Below are positions 3,618-60,500 of a DNA stretch of 64,000 nt, one piece after another (position 1 is the stretch's first letter; the number at the start of each line of letters is the position of its first letter). Source of the stretch: Lepraria neglecta. Taxonomy: Eukaryota > Ascomycota > Lecanoromycetes > Lecanorales > Stereocaulaceae. The DNA lies in assembly GCA_033220425.1 (NCBI GenBank), contig CM065647.1, positions 2,294,001-2,358,000 of the forward strand. Direction: 5' to 3'. A model generated the notes under the pieces. It did not search any database. It was not told the origin of the DNA and saw only the letters and a list, made by a program, of their open reading frames with translations. The translations under genes and the position numbers were made by a program.

Positions 3618-6600
3618 ATGGACAAATCGTCACATTCGAGTATCTACGTGGCCCCTCTTCAAATTGCCAAAGACGTGTCACGCGCAACAAGCAGAGCATC
3701 AGATCGGCCACAGACTTCATTCACCACATATGGGAGCGCATACGCACCGTCTCAGACAGGTCAAATGACCCCGCCTCTGACGCCTTCTGAAGCGAGCTTT
3801 GAACCCCCTACTCACTTCCAGAGCTACCTGCGTGCCTCTCACCCTTACCATCCTAACTGCGATGACAACACCTCAACTGTTACCTTACCACTGAACACTG
3901 GAGACATCATCCTTGTTCACTCTGTCCACACCAACGGATGGGCAGATGGTACTTTACTAACGTCAGGCGCTCGAGGATGGCTTCCCACAAATTACTGCGA
4001 GGGGTATGAGAATGAAAGGATTCGTAGCCTCATGAAAGCATTGACCCTTTTCTGGGACCTGGTCAAAGGAAGCAGTGTGGGTCTGCGCGTTTTCCGCCAT
4101 GCAGATTATGTTCGGGGTCTTATTGCGGGTGTGCGATGCTTACTGGTTGGTCTTTCATTTTCCAGGCTGTGGCGGGGAGCCTGCATGTTTATCAGCGCCA
4201 CTAACAGATTCGTAGGACAAAACCAATTGCCTCAACAGGGATTCGAGTCTAGTCCAGTCCCAAGAGGCGCTGCGCAAGTATCGTAAAGCCCTACTTTCAG
4301 ACCTCACATCGTTTGTCCGGATTGCCAAAGGCTTGGAGAGCCTTTTGGATAATGCTTCTGGAAAATTGGAGGTTGTGATTGATCTGGATGAAATGGTGAT
4401 GAAGGCATTTAAGATGGTGACACGGGCAGTCAAATTTCTAGACATCTGGGAAGACCTTGTGCGCAACACTAACGGATCTGCGGCTATTGCTCAAAACATG
4501 CATGTCCCGCCTACGCCTCCTGCAGACCACACCGAATTTGGAATCCCAGAAAACAACCACGAAATTACTTCGGTTGCGGCCGGTCGTATTTCACAGGCAA
4601 ACACGTACAATGCAAGAGACCACGAAGAGCAAACATGGGTCCGACCGCGCTATAATCGTGCATCACAATCATACGTACGACCTGGAAGCTCTAATTCATG
4701 CAGGCAATCTTACATACCGCCTTCTATGCAAGCGAAGCGAGGGTCCGTCTCTCACCGGGTCTCCTGCAACATACATACAGGATCTCGAAATCTAGCATCT
4801 GAGAAGCTTGGCGAATCGCACAACAACTTTCTCACGTGCCTCGGGTACTTCATCGGCCTGCATATACAGTCACGGTCGTCAGCAGAAATCCTCCTCATTG
4901 CAAAGCGATCTGTTATCTCATGTCGGGACCTCCTAGAGCTTGTTGGAGAAATATGGGAACGTGATTGGAGGCGTTCTGCAGCGCTTCAGGAAGCGCGAGA
5001 CGACATGTACAGCAAGATCACCGATCTCGCCGAAGCCGCTCGAGACGGCTTCAAACCTCTCCGCTCGGAAGACGACGATGAGAGTCTAATGCCCGCGGAA
5101 GGCAAACCACTCGTGGAAGCCGCTACAGCATGTGTACGGGCTGCTGGTGAATGCGTCGCTGAATCACGCTTCGTCATCGACCGGATTGGAGACTTTGATT
5201 TCGAGCACCCGGGGGTTAGTGCATCGGATATTGAAAAGGACACACTCGCGGCGGGCGATGCTGTCGCCGCCGTCGAGGAAGAGCAGCATGCTGTCACTAC
5301 AGAAAGCTTTCCGGTACCACCGGAGCCCTCGAATCAGCCCCCACCACCACCTCCCCATCTACCCAACTCGGATTTGCCCATAGCATCGGCTATACTTTCG
5401 ACACCACCTTCAGCTGAATTGACATCAAGTGCTGCTGTCAGTGACGTAGCTTCTTACCAAGCAACCGCAGATCAACTACTCCAACCAGTAGTTCCGAATA
5501 CGGACTTGTCGCTATCCCAAGGAGATAGCACCCTGCCACAACTATACATTCCTACCGGGGTTGAGAATCAGGCCAGGAGCCGTGGGCGAACAGACAGCCT
5601 CGACGCTTCCAGTGCAGGTGACAGCAGCACATACATCGGCAGCATACCTGATTCAGAACATAGCTCTGGCTCGACCCGTGGAACATCCCCAGATGCGACC
5701 CTCGTCAGCCGTTTGGCTGGAACGTCGTTCTGCAATATTTCTACTGACAGCCAGTCTACGCTCTATGAAGAGGCGGAGGACGACGAGGCTAAGGTGCTGG
5801 AAAAGACCTTCGCTCACGAGCTGGTCTATAACAAGGAGGGTTTGATCACTGGTGGTACATTACCCGCTCTCATCGAGCGCCTTACTACCCCTGATTCAAC
5901 CCCGGACGCTACCTTCGTGTCAACCTTCTACTTAACATTTCGGCTCTTCGCAACGCCTTCTGCATTCGCTCAGGCATTGATCGACCGATTCCAGTATGTT
6001 GCCGAAAGCCCACGAATCGCTAGCCCAGTCCGACTACGTGTGTACAACGTATTCAAGGGTTGGCTGGAATCGCATTGGCGCAATGACTGCGATAGCCCTG
6101 CGCTCGATTTAATAGTGCCTTTCGCGACTCGTCAGCTACAGATCATCTTACCTACGGCCGGCAAGCGTCTTGCTACCTTGGCAGCGAAAGTGACTGCCGC
6201 CAATGGACCCTTGGTCCCTAGGTTAATATCTTCCATGGGAAAGACGAATACCTCAATAGGGCAGTATATATCTCCAGATACGCCCTTCCCAGCGCCAATC
6301 CTCACGAAGAGCCAAATGGCAGCGTTGAAGCATTGGAAGCAAGGTGGCGCCTGCATCAGCATCTTAGATTTTGATCCTCTCGAACTTGCTCGTCAATTCA
6401 CGATCAAGGAATCACAGATCTTCTGTTCAATCTTGCCAGAGGAACTCCTCGCAACGGAGTGGGTGAAGAAGTCCGGCTCAATGGCTGTCAATGTTCGAGC
6501 CATGTCGCGGTTGTCAACCGACCTCACGAACCTGGTCGCAGACTGCATCCTGCAGCTGGAAGATCCCAAGAAGCGCGCTATCATCATCAAGCAATGGGTC

Positions 6601-7227
6601 AAAATTGCCAACAAATTCTTGGAGTTGGCCAATTATGACTCGCTCATGGCTATCATCTGTGCCCTTGACTCTTCCACCATACTTCGCCTCAAGCGCACTT
6701 GGGAGCTGGTGTCCACGAAGACAAAGGCCACCTTGGAGCACCTCAAGAGCGTAGTTGACGTCTCAAGGAACTACACTGTTCTTCGTCAAAGACTTCAAAA
6801 CCACGTGCCCCCATGCCTGCCATTCGTTGGCACTTACCTCACCGATCTGACCTTCGTCGATGTTGGCAACCAAACGACTCGCCAACTTCCAAGCGAAGGC
6901 GTCGAAGCAAGCAGGTCAGTGATTAACTTCGACAAGCATGTGAAGACGGCGAAGATCATCAGCGAACTCCAAAGGTTCCAGATTCCATATCGTTTCACCG
7001 AAATACCCGAGCTCCAAACCTGGATGCAAGACCAACTTGTCCGAATTCGAACATCAGACGAGTGTAACATGACAACCAACCTTTACCGACGTTCATTACT
7101 TCTCGAGCCACGGGAACAGATGCAGAATAAGCAATCACCCATCGAGTCTCACTCCTCAGCAACTTCTCTCTTCGGCTTGGGCTGGACTCATCATTCTCGA
7201 GAAAAGCTTGTTCCTACACCATTATGA
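3618..7227 (+). CDS. CDC25: SH3-RasGEF guanine nucleotide exchange factor (Cdc25 type)
   Basis: Exons 3618-4145 and 4216-7227 are separated by a 70-nt phase-0 intron (GTTGGT...CGTAG, CTAAC branch site), giving about 1179 aa. An SH3 domain lies near residues 72-130 (VTLPLNTGDIILVHS, then GARGWLPTNYCE). A helical region follows the intron, then a long low-complexity linker with a proline run. The RasGEF N-terminal (REM) module is near 700-830 (EGLITGGTLPALIERL). The catalytic CDC25 homology domain is near 896-1140, with the ANYDSLMAIICAL and VPPCLPFVGTYLTDL motifs. Cdc25-family proteins load GTP onto Ras at the plasma membrane upstream of adenylate cyclase and MAPK signalling. The start is the first ATG in the SH3 frame; the open frame continues upstream without another ATG, so a longer N-terminus through a 5' intron is possible. 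Family assignment is very secure. Confidence 0.95.
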
Positions 7228-18499: not shown

Positions 18500-21288
18500 A
18501 TGCCGGACAATTTCCCTTCGATTCTGCCCTTACCTCCAGATGTGGCCGCCCAGATCAAATCGTCTACTGCTATACCATCGCTCACAAGCATTGTCCTTGG
18601 ATTGATAGCCAACTCATTGGATGCAAAGGCGCACAAGATCGATGTCAGCGTGGATTTCCGCAGAGGCGCCGCATCAGTGGAGGATGATGGTCATGGGATA
18701 CCTCCCAATGAGTTTACTGAAACCGGCGGTCTGGGAAAGCCACATCGTGAGCAATTTGGGGAGGTCGTCAAAAACGAAGCTGATGGTAGCCAGACACATC
18801 TAAGAATAAAAGCCCGAACGCTTCGTATGGGAGGAATGGGACCTTCTTGACTTCTGTGGCCGCCTTATCGATTCTAACGATCACATCCCACCATTGTGCT
18901 CACGCACAGCACGCTACTCTGATCTTACATCGCTCCAGGCCAGCTGCGAGATTGGTTCCAGCGCCCTCCCACCATAATCTGTCCCATCGTGAACATGGCA
19001 CACGGGTCACCGTTCACGATCTTTTCGGAAACATGCCTGTGAGGGTGAAGCAACGTGCTATTGGGTCGGAGAACGGAGAGGACGAGAAGCAGCTTCAGGT
19101 GTTGAAGAGACAAGTTGTTGGACTGCTTTTGGCCTGGCACACACCTGTCTCGGTTTCCCTGAAGAGCGCGGAGGGCGGCGGGAAGCTACAAATACGTGAC
19201 AACAAGGATCTAAATACGAAGATAGAGGCGAGTGAGAGCTCCTCTCGGGCTTTTGATCTCTCACTGGTCCGTCGTACTTTTTCTCAAGCTGGATTCATCG
19301 AACCTTCAAACTGGGATGATTGGATCAAGACGTCTGCTCGAACTCCCTTCATCACGATGAAAGGTGCAATCTCCCTACAACCTGCTCCATCAAAACAAGT
19401 TCAATTCATCTCCTTGGGCATTCACCCAGTCAGTACGGCTGTGGCCAACAATGTCCTTTACGATGAAGTCAACCGGCTCTTTGCTTCATCAAGCTTTGGC
19501 AATCAAGAGATTTCTGATACTGAACAAGCCGCCACGATAAACAAAAGTAAGGACCGACGCTTCAAACAGGACGGCTTTACCAACAAGCAACTCAAAGGTG
19601 GCGGAAAGGGGGTGGACAGATGGCCGATGTTTTGCATTCGTATCGAGCTACATGAACATGCAAAACAAGAAATCGAAAGCAATACCGAAAGACTCAGAGA
19701 GGGTACCTTGTCGAGCGTACTGAAGGTGCTTGGCGCTATGACCACCAGCTTCCTCAGGGAAAACCACTTCAGACCACGAGCTAGACTGGAAAGGCGCGAG
19801 CAAGATGCGCCTAGGAAGCCGGAAGCTCGTAGAAGTAGTCCAAGGCTTCAACAACTGGGCGGGAAGCTCCAATCATCAAAGTCTAGCAGCGACCGGTATC
19901 AATACTCCAATTTCGGCGCCTGGAGCCGCATCAAGGTTGGGACAGCTGTAATTCGTCCGGCCGCATGCCCGTCTTCCAGCTCCCCTCAAGGTCAATCGGC
20001 CCCTACAAATTGCGACGGAAGAGGAGCTGCAGAGCCATGTCCAGAGCCAAAGATAGCGCCTGAGCCTCAAAAGTCTGCTGATACTGGATGTTCAGACCCT
20101 CCCACCAGCCAAGATTGCGAGCAGACACTTGAATGGAAGAATCCCATATCTGGGGCTACAATCCTCATAAATGCTCGGACGGGTCTGGTAGTTAATCCAC
20201 AACTTCCGAAGAGACCGGCAACGGCCCCTTCAGAATTTGGCATATCAACTCCACCTTCTCTTGTCCGCGCATACACCACGCCAGCTCCTAACCACGCCAG
20301 GAGACTTACTCGTAGCATCTCCTCACCCTTTGACATACCCAAGGCAGGATCGTGGTCCAGCGACCTTCTTGCCAAATGGGAGAACCCCGTCTTCGATACG
20401 ACAGAGGAGGACATACCCCAAGTTTCCCTCGACGGTCCTAATATTGAAATCTCGGATATTATACATGGCCGACGGCGTTGTTGCTCAGATCTTGATATCC
20501 AGAAGACTTTTACACAATCGTCTTCAGCTTTCTCTGCTAGACTGTCGAAATTAGCTCTTAAGGACGCGAAAATCATCTCGCAGGTTGACAAGAAGTTTAT
20601 TCTCATTTGCATGAGTGACCGTTCGCAAACTGATGTCCCTAAAGGGGGTGAGCTCCTAGTGCTCGTCGACCAACATGCAGCAGACGAGCGAGTCCGAGTC
20701 GAAGGTCTTCTGAGAGATCTAAGCTCAATTCCGATATCACTGGCGAAACCCATCATCTTTGAGACCCAGGCGCGTGAGCAGGAGATTTTGGCTCGCCAGG
20801 CCACCTATTTTGCGGACTGGGGTATTCTCTATGACGTGATCGTTCCGCCTGGTACTAAAAAATGTAGAGTAAGCGTCAGAGCCTTACCGACAGCCGTTGC
20901 AGAGAGATGCAGGATCGAACCCAAAGTCCTCATCGAATTACTGAGAGCCGAAGCCTGGAAGCGCGAAGAAAACGGCGGCTTAAGGTCCACGAGGCAATGC
21001 CCCCAAGGGCTTCTCGATATGCTCAACTCGCGTGCCTGCCGGAGCGCTATCATGTTCAACGATGAGCTTACCCACGAAGAAGCCCAGACATTGATACAAC
21101 GACTTGGAGATTGTGCTTTTCCGTTTCAGTGTGCACACGGGAGACCCAGCATGATCCCGCTTGTTGACCTAGGCTCCAGCTCGTGTTTTGGTATGGGAGA
21201 AAAGGCCTTTGGAGCGCCTAAGGGTGGGGAAGCAAAAGAGGAGAAGGGCTTTGGGGAGGCTTGGAAAACGTGGAAGCCGAGCGTCTAG
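18500..21288 (+). CDS. MLH3: MutL-family mismatch repair / meiotic crossover protein MLH3
   Basis: Exons 18500-18746 and 18794-21288 are joined across a 47-nt phase-1 intron (GTGAGC...GCCAG), giving 913 aa. The GHL ATPase starts at once with ILPLPPDVAAQIKSSTAI and has ANSLDA and the nucleotide-binding EDDGHGI near residue 62. Next come the spliced segment GKPHHTSK, YGRNGTFLTSVAAL, and HGTRVTVHDLFGNMPVRVKQR. A variable linker follows. The C-terminal endonuclease domain shows DQHAADERVRVE near residue 708 (the DQHA-x2-E-x4-E metal site), ACRSAIMF, and CAHGRP near 862. MLH3 pairs with MLH1 and nicks DNA during mismatch repair and crossover resolution. Both catalytic motifs are intact, so an active nuclease is expected. 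The start fits the usual MLH3 N-terminus closely. Confidence 0.95.
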
Positions 21289-25164: not shown

Positions 25165-28100
25165 TCACTCTATCAATGACTCCAGTTCCTGTTCGTACGT
25201 CAGTGACAATTCGGAGTGAGAGTAAAGTGTTCCTACATTGATGCCATCGCCCTCATTAGCATCATCGCCTGTTGACGTAGAAAGCTTTGCCAGCCAAATC
25301 TTGCGTCTTTGCCGTGCCTTGATCAACTGGAAAGGATTATTAGTCTCAGGTGGAGGACGACAGCAGTCATCAACTTACCTCTTCGATTGAATCTTTCACA
25401 ATGTAGCGCATGATGACAACATCCTTGTTCTGGTCGATTCTATCAACGCGTGCCGCAGCTTGAGCCTCGACCATAGGGTTCCATTGAGGTTCCACGATAT
25501 GCACGTGGGTGGCAGCCGTCAGGTTCAGACTGCTGTATGTCAGTCTGTAATCTTTCATGGCAGCTTGAGCAATGTGAAAAGACTTGCCCTACGGAGCCAC
25601 TTCCGAATGAAAGTAGCATGATCTGCAATTCTGGCTCGGTCTGGAATCTTTCTATAGCTTTTTTCCTTTGGTCAAGAGCCAGACTGCCATCGATACGGGA
25701 ATATTGCATATTGCATCTTGATAGAGCCGCTTCTAGTGCATCTAGTGTCGTGGTCCAGCATGAGAAAACCAGGCTACAAGCAGTGAGCAACTGGGGGTGG
25801 GGCTGATGACAAAATAAGTGTCTCACCTCTTGATCGGCTTGTCATCGCTGTGTCGCTTTTGATCAAGCTGAAGAAGATTACACATGATGCTGTCAATCTT
25901 TGAGGACGATTCTGCTCCTGATTGTAGTACATCATCTAGCTCCATGTTGACGTCGTTGTTACCGGCATATCTGGACACCTGATCATCAATCTGAGACACC
26001 AGGGTATCCATGCCCTCACAGACACCATTCTTCAGCAATGTTGAATCTGTTGCCAGACCTAAAGAAGCATCCTCCTCGAAGGCGCATTCTGGACAGTACT
26101 GGGGCCCACCGGTTGCATTCGAGGTCGACCGAGAGAGTTGAGACGATGGTAAGACGTCCGCACACCTGCTGCAGACATACTGTCTGTGCTGGGACTGACG
26201 AGTGGCGACTATGTCAGGTCTGGAGATTTGGTCCCGTAGTCCATGGCTGCAGACTTGCCTCATCTGGAGTATGTATGAGAGCAAAGTATGGGAAGACGAG
26301 CTCTTTCCGGTACGGGTGATCGTCTTTCGAGCCTGGGCGCGTATAGAACTGTATTTTTCGCGCTCAGCTCGAGAGAGTTCAACGGGTTCCTCGGTCTCTG
26401 AGCGGCCGCAATGGGTCTCGGAAGACGTGGATCTTTTCAAGGCAACGGTCCTCATAAGTAATCGGAGGTTATTCAGTCCATTTACGTCCTTACTTCCCAG
26501 GGGGTCCAAGATCCAGCGTCGAGTATTTGAACGATTTTCGACAGGATGAAAACGTAAGAATTCAGTGAGCGTAAAGAGATCCTCTAGCCTGTTCTGGACA
26601 GGTGTCCCGGTAAGACACCATCTCCTCTCAGCCTTAAGGTTCATAGTGGCTTGGAATGCTTTAGTGCGGTTCCGTATATGATGTGCTATCATATAGAAAG
26701 CACCAATCAGTATTAAATTTGGGAGACTGTTGGAGAGAGATGGGTGGAGTGTACCTTCATCTAGCACGACACGGTACCATGGTGTTGCTTGGAGGTTGTT
26801 TGATCTATTCGCATCGGAATAGACTGTCTCGTAAGTCGTAAACACGATATCATGTTCTGCAAGACTTCTAGGGTCAATGTTAGTCCCTTGACCGTAATAA
26901 AAGAGCTTTTTGAGCTCTGATGAAGTATGCCTAAGGAGATTTAGCAGAAGACAGCAAGCTCCCAATCTGCTGTTCACGGACCTGTGCAACTCCTGTTCCC
27001 AGCTATATAGGGCTTTTACTATGTTAGCAAGCGGTGGAATGTTAGCAAGCAAAAGTGTTACGGGATTCAGTACTAGACTTGGGTGTAATGACAAGCGTCG
27101 CTCCTGAGACACTCGTGCCTTGCCCTTCTCCAACTCGGATCTCTTCACACCGCCGGCGAGAAGAGCGTGCATGGTCTAGAGTATGCATAATTAGTGCAAG
27201 GAGTGACAGCGATTTGCCCATCCCCATGTTGTCTCCCAATATCCCCCCACGGGAACCCTGCGGCTTTCTATATCGCTTCTCCTTGGTGATCTTATGTATA
27301 AAACTATGAGTAGTTAATTAGATAGTATTCGAATGTGATGCACCAATGTCCTCACCCATCTCTATAATTGATAGTAGTTGGCTCCCATAGCGAAAGCATA
27401 TTCTCTTCTTCATCCTCACGAGCGATCATAAATTGCACAGCGCTTAGCTGATGCCTAGAACCATGATGAAAGTGAGTTAGCAAATGCTGCTGGCTGATGT
27501 CCTGAAGTCGAACCTTTTAAGCACTGTCCTAATCCGCGCATCCTGTTCGAATCCACAAGGCTCTACGACATCGTTGGAGGAATCCAATATCTCTTCAACC
27601 TCCGTTGCAAAGTCCATCTTGGGAGCATTTTGCGTGGTGATAAGTAGAGGGGTGGTCGAGATATCGTCCCAGGTGAGGAAGTGGGGGTTTCGATAGGTGG
27701 TTTTGCTGTCGAGACAGGTTGGCTCCTGTAGGAACATGCCAGCATCCGATAACATTGACCCAACTTCATCGAGGTATTGATCAGACCCAAATACATTGAT
27801 CTGCAGCGGTGTTATGGAAGAGGACTTCTTTTGCTGAGGACCGCAATCCATCTGCTCTTCTTCATGCCCCAAGAATACCTCGAACTTAACGGAAGTATCA
27901 ATCTCTTTCAGCCGCTTCAGGTGCACGGCAGTCTTGGTATCAACAATCCCAATCTCTTCAGATGTAGGCAGCAATACGGTAGTCGCATCGGTTCTAAATC
28001 GGAGGCTGAGGGCAATGGGATGTTTCGTAGAAGTAATCCGATTCTTTGGCTGCCCAAGGGCTCGGAACGGCTTGATCCTGCCATCGAGGAGCTGTTGAGT

Positions 28101-28821: not shown

Positions 28822-31800
28822 ATGGCTGCTGCACCTGCTTTTCGTCAAAGCCTAACGGCCTTCAAGTTGCGGCTCTCGACACCGGACGAGGAGAAATTCG
28901 TGCTGACAACCTTCGAGGACCTCAAAACTGCCGTGAAGGAGATCCAGCAGGAACAAGCTCAACGACGAGGGTATCGGAACTTGACCAAGATCAAACCTTT
29001 TCTGGTCACCTTACAGCAGTACGCGCTTGTCATTGAACAATTCGTCAACGCCAAATCCGACTTTCTAGCATTCATATGGGTCCGTGACTACATCCCCCCA
29101 TCTAGGTTGTCCAATTTTGACTGACCGAGTCCAAACAAAGGGGCCCATAAAATTATGTCTCCAAGTATGATGAATTAGGCGTGTACTTTGTGAAAGATTC
29201 CTGTCACTAATGAATGGTGACATTGTAGATTGCCTCAAGGCTGACAGAGGCATTCGATTGGCTTCTGGATGCCTATGCACGGATCGGAGAGTCCTTGCCA
29301 GTCTTCTCGGCAGTTGACAATCTCTTCTCCTCTCATCGGCATGATTACGTCCAGCAAATCTTGGCCAATGTCTACGAAGATATTTTATGCTTTCACCAAC
29401 GCGCAATTGTTTTCTTCAAGCAGTCAAGTGGGTGCTTTGTCATCTATATAGATCCCGTACTGACATAACGCAGCATGGACCCTAGCTTTCAAGACCACTT
29501 TTCGAACGTTCAGCGTCATGTTTGGAGACGTGGCCAAGAATCTTCAAAGATCCAAAGAGCTTCTCATTCAAAGTGCAAGTGTTGCCCACTTCCAAGAGGC
29601 ACAGGAAGCTAGGTTGCTCCTCACTCAAGAGTTCAACGCTCAGAAAGAAAGACACGAACAGCATCAAAGACTAGCTGTAGTCGGTTGGCTTTCGCACATC
29701 TCTTGCGATCTCCTGCATGCGGAGCTTCAGGAAACGCGTCAAAGATTCCCGGATACCACTCGTTGGATATTTGATACGGCTCAGATGTGTGAATGGCTGC
29801 GCAAAGATAACTCAAGCAGCCTCATCCTTTGGCTTTGTGGCGTTCCTGGAGCAGGTGAATCCCACAATACGACACAAAATTTTGACGTGCTGACTGTTCT
29901 TTTAAAGGGAAAACGGTATTGTTCAGCTCTGTTACTGACCATATAAAGGCAAATTACCCAAACTCTCAAGTCATTTTCTTCTATTGCAAAGAGAGTGACC
30001 CTTTACGGAGAAGCTTTGTTGATGTTGCCAGATCCTTGATCACCCAAATCTTGGAGTTGAATCCAGTCTGTACACGCTATCTCTACGACAAGGCACTGAG
30101 TAGTGTTGAACAAAACCTTAGTTCCATGTCCACATGTATAGAGATACTGGAGAGCCTTGCTTTGCATCACAGTCAGCTGTTCATTGGGATTGATGGTTTG
30201 GACGAGTGCGGAAAGCTGGAAAGAAGCAGGATACTAGCCATGCTCCATCGCATTCTAGGATCGTCTAAAGCAAAAGTGAATGTGAGAATATTCTTGGCAA
30301 GTCGCAAGGAGGGGGACATAGAGAAGTCTTTGGAGTCTGCGAACAGGCTCGAGATCAGGCCTTTCCACCTCAAAAAGGACATTAGCAGCTATGTCCGTGT
30401 GCAAGTCTTGGAGCTAGGCAAGAAATTCGATCTTTCTGCCGAGCGCCAGAAGCACACCACAATAGAAATTACAACGCGCGTAGATGGTATGTGGGCATCA
30501 CCGTCGGCTGATTACCTCAATTAATTTCTTTCGCTCAGGTATGTTTCTCCTGGCTCGACTCATTATGGACAACCTTTTGGATCAAATCTGCCATGAGGAT
30601 CTGGAAGAGGAGTTGAGAAGCGAAATATTGCCTAAGGGCATCGAGCAAGCGTAAGTCCCAGTGTCTGGCGCGCTAAAGGATACAAACTAAGTGCTATAGA
30701 TATGGACGTATTCTGTTCCGAATGCAGAAGAGACACCATTCGCCAATACGATGGGAACGCTCAAAGCTCGGCTTAGATGTTCTCACAATGGCCAAAAGGC
30801 CCTTGAAAGTCCACGAGATTCAAGCAGCGCTTTCTATCCGCATACAGGACAACAGCATCGACTTTAGAGAGCGAAGATCACTGATAACCGTTGAGGAGCT
30901 TTTAGGTCCCATTGTCGAAGTCCATGCTGATACTAACGTGAGCTTCATTCATTCCACGGCTAGGGAGTGAGCACACTGATATTTAACCTCAATAGCAAAG
31001 CTGATATGATCCAGTTATCTTCTCCAGTATCATAGCGATCATTTTATTGATCCTGGTGCTGCCGAATTGAGGTTGGCACGACTGTGCACCTCTTACCTCA
31101 CATTCAAGTGCTTCAGTCCTTTCCTCAATGATTCGGGTATCAAAGATGCTGTTCATAGAGGAGACTACGCTTTCCAGGAATATGCAACATTCAATTGGAT
31201 ACGCCATGTGGACTCCCTAGGGAGTTATAGCAATTTAGGGACCCATGGCGAGATCTCAAGCATGGGAGACTCGATTGCACATCTACATTCGCATCATCTC
31301 GAAGAACATGCGGAAGAAATCTCATTCTCAGACAGTGACAGGACTAATCGTGACGAGCCAGACTTCACGGAAAGACTTGAAGATCTCCGAAGCATCTATG
31401 ACTCAGCAGATACTATCCACTGCAATGAAGATCTACCAGGTAAAGTTACTCCATTGTCGTGCCTACACCACGTCTACTTATTGACACCATTCTTACCTCG
31501 CAGACTTGAAATCATATCTGCTACTTCGACTTGTCAAAGTTCGGGCTGTGCTAGAAGAACTTTCGCCTGAAGAGTTGGAGGCATCGCCCCTATTGACCGA
31601 GGCTTACGGCGAATCGCTGTACAAATGTCCTATGGTAAATTGTAATCGTTTCTGTCAAGGCTTCGCGAATCGACATGGTCGAGATGAGCATGTTAAGAGG
31701 CACAAACGAGCACACAAATGCACGTACGAAGGGTGTGACTATATGGAGCTGGGCTTTTCCACCGCCGCTGAACTCAACAGACATCTTCAGCTTTGCCATT

Positions 31801-34349
31801 CCACATCATCTGAAGGCTTCACATTCCCGAACGTCAAGTCTGTCTCGACAAGTAAGGCTCTCAACGATGCCATAGATGGTGATGACGCCTTAGCTGTCCG
31901 GGATATTTGCATTGCGCTCTTGAAGCAGCCGCATGTAGAGAATGGATTCCTACTGAGAGCCATCAGACAGAAGAGCGTGAAAGCGGCGTTGGCAGTGGTG
32001 GAGTTGTTAGGAACCAAAAAGGAAGTGGACCACAAGGACAGAAACGGGAAGCTGGCATTACATGAGGCAGTAAGGTTGCAGCATGAGGAGTTACTAAAGC
32101 GAATTTTGGACACGGAGGTTGATGTCAACGCTGAAGACAGAAGCGCCAAAGTTCCCTTTTTGATAGCTCTAGAAGATCGCTTTTTTCATGCCGCGGAACT
32201 GCTACTGAATCACGATAGATTCGAGCTCAAGCCCAGTGCCTGGACGTCAGAAGTCTTTCACAAAAGCATTATACAGACTGCATCTAGCGGTCGCAACAAT
32301 ATCCTACGAGCCATTTTCGAAAGCTCCGCTGAGGCGTTCGCGCAAAAACCTATGCCAATATCGAGGATGATCCTTCGATCACTGGCTGAAGCTGGTTCAA
32401 ATAACCACGAATCAACTGTCACCTTACTCCTTACCTCGGCTCTCGACCTAGGATTGAGGTCATACTTAGGTGAAGAGCTCATCAAGGAACTACCGAGGGG
32501 CATAGAAGCCGTTACGAAGCTGCTTATAGATGGTTCTCTGAACCTCAGACTTGGTGTGGACAAAAGTGGAAAGACTAGAGGCAATGCCCTTGCACGTGCT
32601 GCCAAGACAGATGACAAGGAGACAATTCTGCGTCTTCTAAAAAGTGGAGCCGACATCAATTTCAGCTCCGGTCTGAGGTATAATGCATTGGGAGCTGCTG
32701 CGAGGGACGGCAAACTGTCAATGGTACAATTTCTACTAGAGAAGGGGGCAGATGTCAATGCAAAGGGTGGCGAAGCTGGCAATGCGCTGTATCTGGCTTG
32801 TGTGAAAGGCGAGCTGGCAATCGTCCAGACGCTTCTTTCAGCAGGAGCAAATGTTAATACACACGGCAAACATCATGAGACTGCACTAGGGTTGGCATCG
32901 AACAACAAGCACGAGGATATTGTTCGGTTACTACTTGAGAAGGGAGCGGATGTCAATATTCAGGGTAATATATACGGCACAGCGCTAAGCCGTGCTTTCT
33001 CGGGAGGCTCTGATGCTATTATCCGGCTACTGCTTGAAAAAGGCGCTGATTTCATTGCTCCTGGTGGGTCTTATGGTACTGCGTTGATTTTAGCTTGCGC
33101 CAAAGGAGAAGAAGCTAAAGTTCAGCTTTTACTTGAAAAGGGAGCAGATGTTAATCTACAGGACCAAAATCAACGGACTGCGCTTCACGAAGCTTTCAGA
33201 TATGGGAACAAGAGCATTGTTCAGCTTTTACTTGAAAAGGGAGCAGATGTTAATCTACAGGACCAAAATCAACGGACTGCGCTTCACGAAGCTTCCTCCA
33301 GATATGAGAACAAGAGCATCGTTCAGCTTTTACTTGAAAAGGGAGCAGATATTCATCTACAGGACCAAAATCAACGGACTGCGCTTCACCTAGCTTCCAG
33401 ATCTGGGGATAAGAACATCGTTCAGCTTTTACTTGAAAAGGGAGCAGATGTTGATCTACAGGACCAAATTCAACGGACTGCGCTTCACGAAGCTTCCAAA
33501 TCTGGAAACAAGAACATCGTTCAGCTTTTACTTGAAAAGGGAGCAGATGTTAATCTACAGGACCAAATTCAACGGACTGCGCTTCACGAAGCTTCCAAAT
33601 CTGGAAACAAGAACATCGTTCAGCTTTTACTTGAAAAGGGAGCAGATGTTAATCTACAGGACCAAAATCAACGGACTGCGCTTCACGAAGCTTCCTCCAG
33701 ATATGGGAACAAGAGCATCGTTCAGCTTTTACTTGAAAAGGGAGCAGATGTTGATCTACAGGACCAAAATCAACGGACTGCGCTTCACGAAGCTTCCAAA
33801 TCTGGAAACAAGAACATCGTTCAGCTTTTACTTGAAAAGGGAGCAGATATTCATCTGCAGGGCAGCGGGCAACGGACTGCGCTTCACGAAGCTTCCGGAT
33901 CTGGGGACGAGAACATCGTTCAGCTTTTACTTGAGAAGGGAGCAGATGTTAATCCACGGGACCAAAATCAATGGACTGCGCTTCACGAAGCTTCCAGATC
34001 TGGGAATAAGAACATCGTTCAGCTTTTACTTGATAAGGGAGCAGATATTCATCTGCAGGACAGCGGGCAACTGACTGCGCTTCACATAGCTTCCGTATTT
34101 GGGAACAAGAGCATCGTTCAGCTTTTACTTGAAAAGGGAGCAGATGTTAATCTACAGGACAAAAATCAAGGGACTGCGCTTCACGAAGCTTCCAGATCTG
34201 GGGATAAGAACATCGTTCAGCTTTTACTTGAAAAGGGAGCAGATATTAATCTACGGGACCAAAATCAAGGGACTGCGCTTCACGAAGCTTCCAGATATGG
34301 GAATAAGAATATCGTTCAGCTTTTACTTGAAAAGGGAGCAGAAGGATAG
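28822..34349 (+). CDS. NLR-like STAND receptor: fungal N-domain, NACHT, C2H2 fingers, ankyrin repeats
   Basis: Nine exons (28822-29079, 29141-29164, 29229-29427, 29474-29854, 29908-30486, 30539-30650, 30700-30966, 31015-31439, 31504-34349) encode about 1696 aa; all eight introns (46-64 nt) keep frame. Residues 1-210 match the helical N-terminal domain (DUF7708-like, to be verified) that often precedes NACHT in fungi (LPFLNALQQ-like KPFLVTLQQYALVIEQF, then FIWGPIKLCLQ). NACHT: Walker A GVPGAGKT near 286, split by an intron, and Walker B LFIGIDGLDEC near 378. Two C2H2 fingers follow near 788-846 (CPMVNC...H...H and CTYEGC...H...H). Ankyrins fill ~850-1696; the last 12 units, from 33159, are nearly identical. 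The frame ends EKGAEG-stop inside a unit, leaving three further ankyrin-like units out of frame. By family, such proteins sense ligands and trigger nonself or heterokaryon-type responses; ligand and effector here are unknown. Confidence 0.9.
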
Positions 34350-34365
34350 CCTGCAACGGACTGCG
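33120..34365 (+). repeat. In-frame tandem array of ~99-bp ankyrin-coding units
   Basis: Twelve units follow each other, each starting around CAGGACCAAAATCAACGG and coding QDQNQRTALHEAS...NIVQLLLEKGAD. Ten are 99 nt; two (near 33258 and 33657) are 102 nt because of an extra Ser codon. The neighbouring units starting near 33459 and 33558 are identical over 99 nt. Variation is concentrated at a few codons: the DQNQ/DQIQ/GSGQ/DSGQ position, the residues after EAS, and VNL/VDL/IHL at the unit end. The earlier ankyrins (32590-33120) are much more diverged. This pattern means recent unit duplication or continuing homogenisation. Confidence 0.95.
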
Positions 34366-34635
34366 CTTCACGAAGCTTGCGAATCTAAGAGCAAGACTAC
34401 AGTCGAGCTCCTCTTCAAGAATGGGGCAGATATGACGCTGCAGGATAAGAATCAAAGGAACGCGCTTTATATAGCCTCTTTTCGTGGGAAAGAGGACATT
34501 TTCCAGCTACTACTTGCAAATGGGACTGACCTCTTCGTACCTGGTGGAGCTTACGACGTTGCACTTAATATGGCTTGCGCTGCAAATTGGCTCGATGACA
34601 TCCTGATACTGCTCGAACAAGGGGCCAGCATTTGA
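34350..34635 (+). pseudogene. Out-of-frame ankyrin tail of the NLR-like gene
   Basis: After the stop at 34347-34349 the plus strand continues to encode ankyrin sequence in a different frame: LQRTALHEACESKSKTTVELL, DKNQRNALYIASFRGKEDIFQLL and a final AYDVALNMACAANWLDDILILL ending at a TGA at 34633-34635. Compared with a normal unit, about 11 nt are missing just before (around 34340-34352). These three diverged ankyrins look like the original C-terminus. As read here they are not translated with the rest of the protein. No GT-AG intron spanning the break was found. Confidence 0.7.
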
Positions 34636-36312
34636 AGTACCGCCTGAGATATACAACAGAGCAATTAAGGCAATAAAAAACAACAAGGTAATACCATCCA
34701 AAAGCTGCGAGGCTATGGTCCAGATACTGCACGCGATAGGAGCGATGTCGAAGGAGTAAGAAGATCAGATGAGACCAAGGCTTTATTGTGTCTATCCACT
34801 TTCTATACCGCATTTCTCGATTATACCCTTTCACAGCACAATTTGAGATGGCTGCTTCTGATCGTCAGAACTATCCAGAAACAATATCACTAAGGTCTGT
34901 AGCCCTCACGCAAACGATCCATATTGCTTCTCGCTAACAAGGAGAAGTAGAAAAGAGCTTCCCCTCTTCATAATGCACAGCCAAACGGTTGAATTCCAGA
35001 CCCCAAAGTCTTGAGCCATGTTCGCTCGGAGCTACTGCCGACCTTTGCAAACGCGATAATGGCTAGACGAACCCACTCAGCCTGCAACAGGCACGTAGCA
35101 AATAAGAAGACGCTAAGATGGTGGGACAAAGGGGCCAGGGCTGTAAGCATGAGAAAGGCCGCGTGCATGCCTAGAAATCATGTTGGTGATACTGTTGCAG
35201 GACAAGTGATATCTAACACGATTTTGCAAGAATGGTTGAAGTTTGGGCAGATAGATGGAGATAAGGCAATCACATCTTGGAGCATCTTCTGCATCATGAG
35301 TCTGATGTCCATGCTTGTACGATAGAATTGTTGGCGATTGGCAATTCGCTCGACTCGTGCCCTTCGTCTATGCGTAGATATCAGAGGCATCATAGAAAGT
35401 GATGTTGTTTCCGCGAGGTGTCCCCTATTCTTTGTGACTATCGTCAAAGCTTTGGTGCTATGCAATTCCCAAATCTTCATTGCATTCACAGCCTCACGAG
35501 ATACCATGTCGATACAACCTGTGCGGAAGCGCATCATCAGACGTGCAAGAATCACGATGTTGGTTCAGGGGTGCACGGCTTTGCCGCTTCGAGAACCAGG
35601 CTACGTAAGTGGACGTATCGTCCAGACTTGAGCTCGTGTCCCGTCCCTGTGGCGTGGCTTGTCAATAGCTCAAAAAGCTAACGAACAGTAGCACGTGGAG
35701 ACACGGCACAATAGACTTTTGAACTTGCAAAGCGTAAATACGGTAACGCCACGTGAAAGATAGTAAGTTCGACCAATATGCTTTAAAATGGCGGTCTGGA
35801 ACGTGGGGGCTTAGTGTAATGAGCGAGCTTTAGCTCTTGGAGACTTGGATATAGCGGCATCAAAGGCTTTGATGATGCCCATGTGGTGAACTACGTGGTC
35901 TGCTCAATTGACGAGGTTCTTTGAGTAGTAGAGGAGTGCGTGCAGCCAAGCGAGAATATCTGCTTTGCTTTTGCCCATACTTATTGCCCATACCTATTGC
36001 CCTTCCTTTCAACGTGAGGGTGGGCGAAATGAAGAGGTGGATTTGATGATGAGAAAACAACATTGAGAAGGAAAAGGAAGGAACTTGAAGCTATTATTTG
36101 CCCTATCTGGGTATCTCATTGCATTTCAAGCAGGAGATGGTTGGAGCTAGAAAGTTGCACCGACAACAAGCTGAAGCTTCCATATACAGTGCTTCTCCAA
36201 GCATAGACTCCAAATCTTCGTAGAAAAGCAAAATACACTTCTCGATGTACACATTTCTTTTAAGCTAGCCCTTATGTAGTCATGATTGCCATACCTGACC
36301 CATCTTCTTTTA
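34636..36312. other. Intergenic region downstream of the NLR-like gene
   Basis: About 1.7 kb with short overlapping frames on both strands (for example 35178-35555 minus and 35338-35631 plus), none with a motif. The right end holds the 3' UTR of the minus-strand gene that stops at 36313. I see no terminal repeats or transposon coding. Confidence 0.4.
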
Positions 36313-41413: not shown

Positions 41414-43182
41414 GAGAGGGACATTAGCTTGAAGACTGATCTACGGTTGGACCACGGCTCAACCAACACCGAGAGACAGCGGCATCCCATGGCCCAAAGT
41501 CTAGGACCACCACTTTCGGACATGATGATCGTCATCGCGGCAATGTTATCACAAATTTATAAGCGACCTTGATGAGACGTGGGAGGACAAGGGTGTGCCT
41601 TCTCAAAGAGGAAGGATTCGAGAAGTCGGTCTAGAAGTTTTTGGCTCGGAAGCCCGACGGTAATTGGTTTAGATCACTGAGGCAAACAAAACCTTAGATG
41701 AAATGACGTAAGTGCGGCGAAAGTGGCAGCGGTACTGTCTATCCAGACCGCACAAAGCCCACAGGCGCGCGTGGTTGGCACTATCTTGTCGTACATTTAT
41801 GCGCAGGAATTGGGTATCGTGGATCTACCGATCTAAGGGAGCCAGACTCGCATGAGTCGCAAGCCGCCAGGCTCGCTCTTCCAATCTAGCGGGCCTGTAA
41901 AAGCGGCGCACTCAAAATACCCTTAATCCGCCAATCCTGGTAATCCTGCCTGACTCAGGAGAGAGTGGGGTTTTCGGCTCGAGCCTGGCGTAGGTCCACA
42001 AATTCTCCGAGAAAACGTCTCGAAAGAGAATTTTCGTTTGGAGTTGGCGGAGCCGTTTGAGGACCAGTATCATTGATCAACTTCTCGTGTCGCCAATAGT
42101 ACAGGCTCTTTGCCGAAGGGTACATAGATGGTGGTGGCTTGTGCTTCTGACAACTGGAGCGATTCGAGTCATTCGCGGCCTTTCCTAGGCAGCTGCCCTT
42201 GGATCTTCACCGTGACTAGCGCTGCTTTCAAGGTTTGCTCCAGAGAAGACTAGGAATAATAATCAATTTCTGTTGCCGCCAACGGCCAGTGTCGCTAAGA
42301 GTAGAATCGGGAAGTGATGGCGTTTGCTGGGATTATGTTGAGTGCAGGCCCCATAGTGATCCAAGCAGTTGGGCCGTAGTGAACTCATGTGATTTGAGTC
42401 GGAGGTACAGCCAGCAGGGCTCCTCACAAGCGGTGATTTGTTACTTAAATGTTGTTAGCGCTTTTCCAAAGCTTCTAGCGGCCTTCTACGCCTTCGAGAA
42501 GCCCAGGGTTCCCACTCGCCGTCCACTATAATATTAGTCAGTCTCTGCCCTTCTCCTCACACCGTCACCTGAGTCGCATTCACGACTCATTCCTCTCCAG
42601 TACATACCTCTCTTTCTGGATTACCAATAATACATTGAGCGATTTCTTACGCTCCTTCTACCCTCGTTGCATACAAATATCCATTCTTCCGCCTTGCAGC
42701 AAATTTGCCCGTTTCCAACCAAACGTACGCCACCAAAATCGCCTACCTTCCTTACAATCAGATCCTGATTCACATTCTGCAGCCTTCCGCCTTTCCCGCC
42801 TGCCTATGACATCTTAACTTCCCAGTGAAAGAGAAGGGTACACCCGACAACGGCACCCCAGGATACCTGCTGAATGTGATCAAGCACAAGTTGACCAGGC
42901 CAACGTTGCAAGATTACCAACCCAAGATTGAGCAGCAATAAAGCGCGCAAACACCAATTCTGCTCGGGTCTCTCCTGCCAGTACCTTGACGTCTCGTGGC
43001 CGACGACCTATGAGGTACTCTCTAACTCTAAAAAACTTTCCTCGACAACTTCGAGGTATCCCGGCATCGTGGCTCGACCGGACATACCCATATCATACCG
43101 TCGGGTTCGAAGCTTTTCGCAGAAAAGAAAGGCATCAGGACACGAACGAACAGGGTCCAGAATACGGGATTGGAAGCGCGCC
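41414..43182. other. Intergenic region upstream of the RGS gene
   Basis: 1.8 kb. The left half has almost no open frames. The right half, about 42540-43182, is rich in C/T, as is usual for fungal leaders. It is open in the RGS frame from 42928 without an ATG, so a 5' intron or long leader is likely. No repeats or RNA genes were recognised. Confidence 0.45.
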
Positions 43183-44235
43183 ATGATCCGCCGGAAACCT
43201 GAGACAGCCCGACCATCGTATCTCTCTACACCTCCACCGGAAACTTCACCTCGTTCTTCTGTCGTCGTCTCAGACTGGGACGCTGACGACGAAGAGACGA
43301 TGTCAATGGAAGACGTTAGATCTTCACGACCACCTAGCGTTGCTGTCGATGACTGCAACGAAGGACAATATTACCCGCAACGGCCCACCCTCCCCGATGT
43401 CCTCTCAAACTCTGCACCGCCGCCATGGACACTCAGTGCATTTACTGCCTACCTCTCTCAGAACCACTGCTTAGAAAATCTCGAGTTCACCATGGATGCT
43501 GAGCGATACCGGGAAAAATACGAGTCATCGAACAAAGGATCGAGACAACCAACCCTCGAAGAAGCTAGATACACCAGAATGCTCTGGCAGCGCCTCATTG
43601 ACGCCTACATAATACCAGACGGGCCACGGGAAATCAACATTCCCAGCAATGTACGCGACACACTACTATCACTACCTAACAACACCACCCCACCAGAACC
43701 GGAAGAGTTGGAGAGCGCGGTTAAAATAATCTACAACCTCATGGAGGAGTCTGTATTGATATCTTTTCTCAATGAGGTTCCACCGTCAGGGCATCACAAC
43801 TCAAGTCAGAGTCGACAGAAGTCGTCGGGGGTAAAATCCCGAAGAAGAGGCGACTCCGACAGCTCGAACGAGAAACCTTCAGGGAGGAGCAAGTCTCGCA
43901 GACGGGCATCCCCTACATCTTCTCTCGACGTCCCGTACTCAGGAGACCGATCCGACCCAACAGGCCGCCTGACGCCAATGCCTGGCTATGCACGGGGCAC
44001 TCGAGCATCTAGTCATACTTCAGGTGGAGATCCGGAATCAATGACAGATGACTCAAACAGTGCCTCGAGTCCGGGCAGAGAGCCCATGACACCACCCAAT
44101 ACACCTCCCTCAAGCGATTTTGGCGGGCACAGCCCCAGAAGTCGAAATGACAATACGTGGAAGAAGATGCTAGGGTGGAAGAAGAGGTCGAGCAACGGAA
44201 TGAGGGACAGTCGATTTCCAACCATTGAGGACTGA
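43183..44235 (+). CDS. RGS-domain protein (RgsB-like regulator of G-protein signalling)
   Basis: One exon of 350 aa from the first ATG in frame (MIRRKPETARPSYLSTPPPE). The RGS domain covers about residues 67-205: PTLPDVLSNSAPPPWTLSAF, TAYLSQNHCLENLEFTMDAERY, RMLWQRLIDAYIIPDGPREI, and ELESAVKIIYNLMEESVLISFL. The C-terminal third is Ser/Arg-rich and ends with a basic WKKMLGWKKR motif before RFPTIED, which may aid membrane contact (inference). RGS proteins speed GTP hydrolysis by G-alpha subunits and so damp GPCR signalling that controls growth, conidiation and nutrient sensing. The subgroup name is from memory and should be checked by phylogeny. Confidence 0.9.
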   Translation: MIRRKPETARPSYLSTPPPETSPRSSVVVSDWDADDEETMSMEDVRSSRPPSVAVDDCNEGQYYPQRPTLPDVLSNSAPPPWTLSAFTAYLSQNHCLENLEFTMDAERYREKYESSNKGSRQPTLEEARYTRMLWQRLIDAYIIPDGPREINIPSNVRDTLLSLPNNTTPPEPEELESAVKIIYNLMEESVLISFLNEVPPSGHHNSSQSRQKSSGVKSRRRGDSDSSNEKPSGRSKSRRRASPTSSLDVPYSGDRSDPTGRLTPMPGYARGTRASSHTSGGDPESMTDDSNSASSPGREPMTPPNTPPSSDFGGHSPRSRNDNTWKKMLGWKKRSSNGMRDSRFPTIED

Positions 44236-57502: not shown

Positions 57503-60500
57503 ATGGCTGCTCCGAGTGGAGAAGCCAGCGTGGGCGAGCACGCTGGCATGGGGATTCCAGTCGGAGGACGGATGCTTATAGGTCCACCGCCATCAACGGA
57601 AAATATGCACCCAAATGGCGCAGGAAATGTGGAGATGGAACCTCTAAGCGAAGATCACAACATTGAAATGAAAGACATAAATAGTACGTCATCGCCGGAG
57701 ACAGATGATCACACACCAAAGTCAGAGCAACCCCAGCTGGCGCAAGCAAACTTGTCTGAAGATGTGCAAGATACATCCAAGCAAGCCTCTCACACAGAAG
57801 GAGATACCGTTGCCCTCCCAGCTGGAAGTGGTGACTATTTCGCTGCAACGGTCCCTCGAGGTTCAACTGTCACCGACTTTGCCCAAAAGACATCCTCAAC
57901 AGCAATACCAACCTCTACCCAGGACTGCAGGCCTCCCTCACAACATGGTGACACTTTGACCCTCGACCATCAAGAGGACTCTGAGACTTCCTGGAGGGAC
58001 TTTTCCACACGGACCGTCATTGGTCCAACATTCATTCCTGGAAGTACCAGGCCGACTTCTGTTCCCAATTTTCAAAGCACAACGCGGCGACGTGACGGGC
58101 CTGAATATCCAACTTACCCAGATCAATCTTTCCAAGCCCTGCAACGCCAAGTTTATCCTCCACCCTACTCGCCCGGCTCACCACACCCACTCAGAACTCG
58201 AAGCTCCCATCCGTCTCAGGATTACTCTGTTTCTTCAACAGATGTACAGGCGATCAAAGAATTCCCTCAAACCAGCTCAGGAGCCAAGACCGTAGGCAAT
58301 ACACCCGCACAAAGTCCTGGCTTATTCTCTCCAATGTTCCCTACCAAAAGGCAATGGCCCGCCGGGTCGGATGATGGACGTTCTGCTACCCCCATGCTCC
58401 ATCCTAGTCATCACAAAGCACCGAAGGAGTAAGCCCGAAATTTCCTAGCTCCTTAAGGTTTACATGTATAGACTACGAAGACGACTTTATATTTATTAAC
58501 GTGTTACAGGACGCACAAGCTACTCAAAGACATCGATCCAATATCTGGCAGAAAGACTATCAATCACTACGAAATCCTACAGAAGCTCGGCAGTGGTCAA
58601 CATGGCACTGTCAAGCAAGGCAGGGACCTCGACGCTGGCGAAATGGTGGCTATCAAAATTGTGCGACGCTTCTCAAAGAAGTTGCGGCTGGGCAGGTCGG
58701 GAGATCCTAATGACATGATCAAGAAAGAAGTCGCTATTCTCAAGAAGGCTCGTCATCCGCACGTCGTTAGCTTGATTGAAGTTATCGACGACGATGAATT
58801 TGGCAAAGTCTACTTGGTCCTTGAATATGTCGAGCGAGGAGAGATCATCTGGCGCAAACAAACCGACAAGTACATCGCACTGTTTGAGATGGAGCGCACA
58901 AAGCGTGAAATTAGCGGTGAGCTCAACGAAGAATCCGAGCGGGCAGCGGTTGAGCGGTTTAACATGGGTGCACCCGCAAGACGTCTTGAGAAAGCTCGTC
59001 TGCTAGAGAAGCAGAAACGTCAAGCCAAAGAACACCTTGAGGCCGAGAGATCTAGTGTTCAGGGACAACGTTTAAGCCTCGATCCTTACTGGTCACTCGA
59101 ATTTGCTGGCGAATCTGATAACGACTATGGATCCGACAATCTGAATCAAGTCGAGCCTCAGCACGGCGATGATATGCAGCCAGGCCATAGCCTTCCGCCA
59201 GCAGACAAGAATGATGCCTCGCCTCAAAGTGACACCCCAAGCCACACACCAAAGCCGCTACCATACCCGATTGACCCTGATCATACACCTGCCAATACAT
59301 CCCGTCCCCACACGCCAGCAAACCTCGAAGGTACGATGTGGGGCCCCTGCCTTGAAGAGAGCGCTTCAGACCTTGCCTTGCAAGCAACACTCAACCAGAT
59401 CATCGCTGCTCAGACTCAATGGACTGCAGAGGAAGAGGACTTCCGTTATGTTCCTTGTCTCACCCTATCTCAAGCCCTAGACGCTTTTCGCGATACTGTA
59501 CTCGGTCTGGAATATCTACACTATCAGGGCATCATACATCGCGATATCAAGCCTGCAAATCTCTTATGGACTCAGGATTATCGTGTCAAGATATCAGACT
59601 TTGGAGTCTCCTACCTTGGCAAACCTATCAGAGAAGATGACAATCATGAGGAGATCCCTGAAGCTGACGCTGCCATACTTGATGAAGCTATCGAGCTTGC
59701 CAAGACAGTCGGTACTCCAGCGTTTTATGCTCCTGAGCTCTGCGATGCTCAATACTTTGAGCTTGGGAGGCAGCTGGATCGCCCAGCGATCACTGGCCAA
59801 ATTGATGTATGGGCCCTTGGGGTCACGCTCTACGCCATGATCTTTGGTCGCCTGCCATTCGTTCATAGCAATGAATTCCAGATGTATGAGAAGATCGCGC
59901 GAGAGGACGTCTTCATTCCTAAAGTGCGCCTTCGCGGTGTCGAACATACAGACAGGACGCCTTCCAACCACAACAAGAGACTGGACGATATCATCGAGTA
60001 CGAAGAAGTTGACGACGAACTACGTGATTTGCTGAAGCGTCTACTCCACAAACACCCAACCAAGCGCATGACTTTGAAGGAAGTCAAATATCATCCATGG
60101 GTGCTCCGAGGAATTGCAAACAAGAATGCTTGGCTCGACGAAACAGATCCGTCACGCCAAAGCCAAGGCAAGAAGATCGAGGTCTCCACACAAGAAGTTC
60201 AAGACGCCGTTGTCGGACTCACCGTTTTCGACCGTGTCAAGGCCGGCTTCCAGAGAGTTGGCTCTGTGCTTCGAGGCCGTGGTTCTCGTAAGAGGGCTGA
60301 CAGCAGTCCTAAGCATCCTGAAGTTTCAAGCTCTGCCCCTGCGCCTAAGGCCAGCCCTAAAGAACAGAGGAGGTCCAGCCTAAGAGGAGACGAGCAAATC
60401 TACTCAGCTCTACGGGCCTCACGCGAAGGCTCCGAGCACCCACTTGCACAAAGCGTCGCCGCCAGCCCCGAACCCGAGGCCGCTCAATCCTCGTATTTTG

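Follow-up and report, generated by a model that had tools for sequence, protein, structure and literature searches.

The question raised by this locus is whether the run of nearly identical ankyrin units at the end of an NLR-like gene is a sensor that changes its specificity by turnover of its units, or whether drift, a broken gene or a faulty assembly would account for it just as well. The window (the whole stretch of DNA analyzed, 64,000 nt without any N) holds the complete gene model, together with a SNF2-related helicase open frame that adjoins it on the opposite strand and open frames of ordinary neighbors with RasGEF, MutL C-terminal, RGS and protein kinase domains (Table 1).

Table 1. 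Positions within the window of the receptor gene, its parts, the sequence beyond its stop and the neighboring open frames.
Feature	Position	Strand	Basis or remark
NLR-like gene	28822-34349	+	nine exons, 1696 codons plus stop; exons placed by eye
Exons 1-5	28822-29079, 29141-29164, 29229-29427, 29474-29854, 29908-30486	+	
Exons 6-9	30539-30650, 30700-30966, 31015-31439, 31504-34349	+	
DUF7708 (PF24809), residues 60-202, split by introns	28999-29598	+	Pfam E 6.6e-15
NPHP3_N/NACHT nucleotide-binding domain, residues 255-451	29755-30398	+	Pfam E 9.5e-36 / 9.5e-9, both above cut-off
Winged-helix domain (GPIID_WHD), residues 545-611	30779-31027	+	Pfam E 1.1e-6
Two C2H2-like fingers between NOD and ankyrins	31626-31799	+	invariant ligand columns
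Diverged ankyrin region, start approximate	31866-33119	+	Pfam Ank_2
Last four diverged ankyrin units, in register	32724-33119	+	pairwise DNA identity 0.53
Near-identical ankyrin array, 12 full units plus stub	33120-34346	+	TRF, anchor count, identity
Array unit starts 1-6	33120, 33219, 33321, 33420, 33519, 33618	+	
Array unit starts 7-12	33720, 33819, 33918, 34017, 34116, 34215	+	stub from 34314
Frame break: 11 bp missing by comparison with the other units, at the junction 34342/34343	34343-34349	+	pairwise unit alignment
Stop TAG after the deletion	34347-34349	+	
Out-of-frame ankyrin tail, 93 codons	34354-34632	+	Ank_2 E 5.3e-12
Possible vestige of the family C-terminus, third frame	34631-34756	+	weak sequence matches
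SNF2-related helicase open frame	25826-27172	-	adjoins receptor gene
RasGEF open frame	4333-7224		
MutL C-terminal domain open frame	18847-21285		
RGS domain open frame	42928-44232		
Protein kinase open frame	58643-61468		

Anatomy of the receptor and its double-finger linker

The frame is unbroken across the joined exons, and the eight introns are all GT-AG and 46-64 bp long. Pfam gives the domain order DUF7708, NPHP3_N/NACHT, winged helix and ankyrins, which bears out the proposal of an NLR-like receptor made in an earlier note on this DNA. The NACHT domain contains GVPGAGKT and GIDGLDEC, which we take to be the P-loop and the Walker B motif, and its core motif columns are invariant across 18 relatives (alignment A2, the first 18 of 48 matches). 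The ankyrins (Ank_2, E 1.1e-157) form the superstructure-forming repeats on the C-terminal side, and neither a HET domain nor WD40 repeats are among the Pfam matches of the gene. Judged by this anatomy, the gene encodes a predicted fungal NOD-like receptor (STAND), of which DUF7708 is presumed to be the N-terminal effector or signaling domain. A phmmer search of DUF7708 against the PDB returned just two matches, both at E 0.2, and thus no convincing solved relative; its assignment as a HeLo-like domain was rejected on this sequence search. A full-text search of a limited literature collection found no paper on DUF7708.

The linker between the NOD and the ankyrins, on which the earlier note is silent, carries two C2H2-like patterns, C-x4-C-x15-H-x3-H and C-x4-C-x15-H-x4-H, whose ligand columns are invariant in all 25 rows of alignment A1 (the window plus 24 proteins chosen from the first 39 search matches). 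The double pattern is present in 15 of the 18 rows of A2, reaching Fonsecaea, Xylaria, Pestalotiopsis and Fusarium, and is missing from P0127 (a partial protein), P0133 and P0136. Pfam places no family above its cut-off on this linker, and one source annotates the relative P0031 as a C2H2-type protein. The best-scoring named relatives belong to Letharia, Lecanora, Lasallia and Letrouitia, all of them lichen-forming, and to Halenospora, Rhexocercosporidium, Oculimacula and Bisporella; the genome may accordingly be that of a lichen-forming lecanoromycete. Passages of a survey of Sordariales NLRs report C2H2 fingers in 34 NLRs and describe the fingers adjoining canonical repeats as all of the treble clef type (PMC12258605). 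From its sequence features, the combination DUF7708-NACHT-double finger-ankyrin may be an undescribed NLR class.

Silent sites, probable turnover and variable positions of the array units

TRF reported the array at 33120-34342, with a period of 99 and 12.3 copies; ten units have 33 codons and two have 34, and an 11-codon stub (VQLLL[E/D/Q] anchor) precedes the stop. The earlier note had extended this feature from 33120 to 34365, of which the array part stands, whereas 34350-34365 lies past the stop. With one codon removed from each of the 34-codon units before pairwise comparison, mean identity over the 66 pairs of the 12 units is 0.901 for DNA (0.788-0.990) and 0.806 for amino acids, and as protein sequences all 12 units differ from one another. 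Where units share a degenerate amino acid, the codon is identical in 95.1% of comparisons (1670 of 1756); codons drawn at random from the gene's own usage agree in 34.8% +/- 1.1% (300 simulations). The four preceding ankyrin units have a DNA identity of 0.529 and share the codon in 32 of 94 comparisons (34%), about what their own null gives (28.7% +/- 5.0%). The array had been described as near-identical down to synonymous sites and the preceding ankyrins as strongly diverged from it, and both descriptions are confirmed; the same-codon excess also upholds the argument that protein selection alone is insufficient to produce such silent-site identity.

The suggestion of recent unit duplication or homogenization is supported by this excess together with comparison with the best-matching protein, P0001 (93% identical in the search table and 90% in pairwise alignment). 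P0001 has three full array units, versus 12 in the window, and its units show fixed differences from those of the window at positions 17 and 33, as is predicted by concerted evolution. Before the last ankyrins (to residue 386 of the exon-9 frame), 13 of 372 residues differ between the two proteins, compared with 24 of 154 in the last ankyrins ahead of the array (contrast p 5e-6); the sensor thus changes faster than the upstream parts, and does so already ahead of the array. Over residues 386-540 of the window 31506-34346 frame, divergence from P0001 climbs toward the array, from 1-5% upstream to 8% and then 24%.

Among the array units, 31 of 91 pairs are four-gamete pairs, suggesting exchange; when clonal descent was simulated and only the sites seen to vary could mutate, 34% of runs reached this fraction, as did 1.7% and 6% under two other rate settings. 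Exchange between units of the array is, from these patterns, likely. Exchange with other arrays of the genome was rejected: a DNA search of the genome found the array at no second locus (its two overlapping matches both lie at this one), which leaves no indication at DNA level of a second locus as its source, although such an absence of DNA matches is no proof that the array is rare. RIP as the source of unit variation was likewise unsupported, the indices of the array differing little from those found elsewhere in the gene (TA/AT 0.62 vs 0.66; (CA+TG)/(AC+GT) 1.51 vs 1.43).

The genome contains at least eight ankyrin arrays, including that of the window, with 83-93% matches between copies (TRF, 63 loci), and seven of the eight have an NPHP3_N match within about 5 kb upstream, none being listed near the array L016; the further array-bearing NACHT genes that the earlier note had proposed to search for were therefore found. 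NPHP3_N matches number at least 150 (150 of 197 candidates scored), some being two pieces of one gene and several carrying stops. Arrays of 126-bp units adjoin five of the eight best NACHT matches (L001, L002, L003, L005 and L006) and translate as WD40-like units, and these are predicted HNWD-like sensors in the same genome. One ankyrin locus, L063 (1971-4612; G000:C7:2485970-2488611), has an open frame of 1601 codons without internal stop that contains NPHP3_N and about 26 similar ankyrin units, mostly of 34 residues. Two related loci are larger: L061 (2354-6411; G000:C7:26353-30410), with about 41 ankyrin units, lies 26 kb from the contig start, and L062 (1834-6886; G000:C9:23333-28385), with about 51, lies on a contig of just 102 kb. 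Each stands behind an NPHP3_N match with stops and has in-frame stops in its array too, and they look like decaying giant-array receptors.

The GADVNA motif, residues 27-32 of the repeat in PMC8683736, served to place the units on ankyrin numbering, and their variation was compared with positions 2, 3, 5, 10, 13 and 14, which PMC3308923 gives as randomized on one surface in an artificial library. Over the 12 array units, mean entropy at these positions is 1.23 bits, versus 0.27 elsewhere, an excess reached in 0 of 20000 permutations, and the true register is the best of 33 shifts; positions 11, 12, 30 and 32 are variable as well. Variable codons had been said to cluster at a few positions per unit, and this is so, at positions that match the binding surface by mapping and by the entropy test. 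In five other arrays of the genome the same test gave p 0.001-0.027 (uncorrected), with the true register ranking first in four and second in L016; since L061 and L062 are homologous, these five represent four independent arrays. The test was confined to 33-codon units (in the window all 12, one codon being cut from two; 11 of 12 spacings in L016, 9 of 11 in L029, 9 of 10 in L031, 37 of 40 in L061 and 49 of 50 in L062) and left out L011 (3 of 11 spacings of 33 codons) and L063 (1 of 23). Variability profiles correlate weakly between independent arrays (Spearman 0.15-0.46) and at 0.91 between L061 and L062.

The original DARPin positions, which we take to be 2, 3, 5, 13, 14 and 33, gave p 0.0001 for the variation of the array. 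Position 33 is not directly in the ankyrin binding surface, according to part of PMC3308923. Distinct changes among the units amount to 30 nonsynonymous and 6 synonymous (one-sided p 0.05-0.21, by transition rate), and at the DARPin positions to 16 and 0 (p 0.003-0.014), with pN/pS of about 1.25 across the whole unit and 6.2 at those positions. The excess of nonsynonymous change predicted for such a surface is hence seen in the binding-face subset but not clearly overall, and diversifying selection at the binding face of the array is modestly supported, from few events. Were the units merely to duplicate by slippage or unequal crossing-over and then drift, the variable positions would be those that the fold tolerates; the overall ratio is compatible with such neutrality, and fold constraint alone would put tolerated changes on the surface, in other arrays too. 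Some silent changes would, however, then be expected at the DARPin positions, where all 16 are nonsynonymous, an argument drawn from a small sample of units that are not independent, and we regard neutral turnover as possible but doubtful.

We consider it probable instead that this is a receptor with an ankyrin solenoid sensor that changes specificity by gain, loss and homogenization of near-identical units. This reading draws on the domain order, the same-codon fraction of 95.1% against 34.8%, the entropy at the face positions and the difference in unit number from P0001, and receptors of this type had already been shown to vary in unit number and to be under positive selection (Dyrka et al. 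2014; PMC4986451). Points that count against it are the frame break described below, the overall ratio of nonsynonymous to synonymous changes, the outcome of the clonal simulations, the weak agreement between variability profiles of independent arrays, the placing of position 33 in PMC3308923 and the small number of family members with such high internal identity. Framework residues of the ankyrin unit would be held constant and a few variable residues placed on its partner-binding face, and each rearrangement of the array would reshape the binding surface while keeping the fold, and units would turn over through gene conversion or unequal crossing-over more than through slippage. A bound ligand would free the NACHT ATPase to oligomerize, which would bring the N-terminal DUF7708 domains together for a cell-death or defense output.

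The frame break in the last unit

A feature absent from the earlier note is an 11-bp deletion in the last unit, which creates the TAG stop (34347-34349) and leaves the ankyrins that follow out of frame. The out-of-frame tail is 40% identical to the relative P0004 over 90 residues. Beyond it, a second frame break near 34631 is possible: the best match of the piece in the third frame (36% identity across 33 residues, with E 5e-5 among 167 proteins) and its match to a tail profile (9.7 bits, E 0.0056 with Z set to 100) are weak, and 11 of its 13 matches stop no more than 40 residues short of the C-terminus of the relative. The tail profile itself matches 18 of 65 family members, in several of which the position given is another, internal stretch. 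Splicing across the break is unlikely; five GT-AG pairs of 40-130 nt within 34150-34430 could on paper restore the ankyrin frame, but each of these candidate introns would start at GTTCAG, a piece of the repeat unit that does not resemble the donors used elsewhere in the gene (GTAAGT, GTATGT and similar). A tie between a near-identical array and loss of the C-terminal tail was rejected, since P0021 has both array and tail.

A further possibility is that the unit number was inflated or collapsed in the assembly and that the 11-bp gap is an error. Near-identical repeats disturb short-read assemblies, as a portion of PMC12222747 reports. The genome, however, consists of 11 contigs, 42 Mb in all, suggesting long reads, and 12 different unit proteins are unlike the outcome of a simple false duplication. 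The gap, to our knowledge, is also not a typical single-base assembly error, and we think an artefact of this kind very improbable.

It is a serious possibility, somewhat short of even, that the gene is an inactive allele in which the array expanded and the gene then broke. The deletion and stop in the last unit, the out-of-frame tail and the possible second break would all be expected of such an allele, and in the parts examined four of the eight ankyrin arrays of the genome (L011, L031, L061 and L062) have stops in the array's frame. Against this, the first eight exons and their splice sites are undamaged, the reading frame runs on unbroken for 5088 coding bases until the deletion, and the P0001 protein likewise ends right after LLLEKGA, so that an end there may be an older shared state; moreover, the tail profile has no match in 47 of the 65 family members, though these include many uncurated predictions of exon length, whose ends may be artefacts. 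Inactive alleles are described as common for het-d and het-e in part of PMC12222747. The frame break and out-of-frame tail are equally compatible with truncation and with inactivation: this copy would be a working receptor that has been shortened, or else an inactive or decaying allele, its probable ancestral C-terminal end lost.

Known receptors and the meaning of the array

Ankyrin versions of such sensors had been presented as less studied; a gap in knowledge here is not supported, since passages of Dyrka et al. (2014; PMC4986451) cover conservation, length polymorphism and selection: high internal conservation marks 10% of the ankyrin repeats of fungal NLRs, the unit number of Podospora anserina ankyrin NLRs is polymorphic between isolates, and positively selected sites of such ankyrins lie, with one exception, on the concave face. 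The array is a further case of this published diversification of fungal NLRs and is not new in kind. Highly conserved repeats are defined in that text as sharing more than 85% internal identity across 100 aa or more (PMC4986451), and by our own measure the longest lag-33 run of the array with >85% internal identity is 111 aa, narrowly above that length. Such a run is present in three of 66 family members, the window included (the 66 being the window and proteins chosen by the finger motif from 271 proteins).

The closest published parallels, the P. anserina PNP_UDP/NACHT/ANK genes Pa_3_8560 and Pa_2_8180, likewise join a NACHT to highly conserved ankyrin units, and in Pa_3_8560 the positively selected or variable sites are mostly on the concave face, as the position mapping suggests for the binding face here; the N-terminal domain is PNP_UDP there versus DUF7708 here, variation was followed there across isolates and here against one relative, P0001, and the text on the P. 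anserina genes mentions no frame break (parts of PMC4986451). The HNWD receptors HET-D, HET-E and HET-R of Podospora are also STAND proteins with near-identical, rapidly changing sensor units, with WD40 repeats and a HET domain where the window gene has ankyrins and DUF7708. In the NACHT-ANK superfamily of Tuber melanosporum the ankyrin sensor of a fungal NLR is diversified as well, by alternative splicing with 3-bp mini-exons according to a passage of PMC9815663, as against DNA-level unit turnover inside one exon in the window. Letharia lupina HO133_005979 (P0031) and Lecanora helva ACLMJK_000545 (P0121) share the DUF7708-NACHT-double finger-ankyrin order (52% and 49% identity, each over 99% of the 920 residues searched), but, unlike the window array, their ankyrin units lack a 100-residue run of 85% identity. 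The array also matches PDB 6ne1 chain B, named Pfs, NACHT and Ankyrin domain protein, and the designed repeat binders 6ndz, 6ne2 and 6ne4 (E 1e-35 to 1e-36, the solved chains being short, 192-200 residues).

A wider reading, which we offer tentatively, is that DUF7708-NACHT-winged helix-double C2H2-ankyrin proteins form a separate and widely conserved class, in which the fingers would serve as a fixed second contact (with nucleic acid or protein) or as a hinge while the array behind them turns over fast; with the capping end lost, the array would now be the C-terminus, an open-ended sensor free to grow and shrink with no cap to keep in frame. If a double-finger class with an open-ended array is real, it would provide a defined family in which to ask about ligands and the control of sensor length. 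As it stands, the locus is a clear ankyrin example, in an array-rich genome, of the published rule that near-identical sensor units vary mainly on their binding face.
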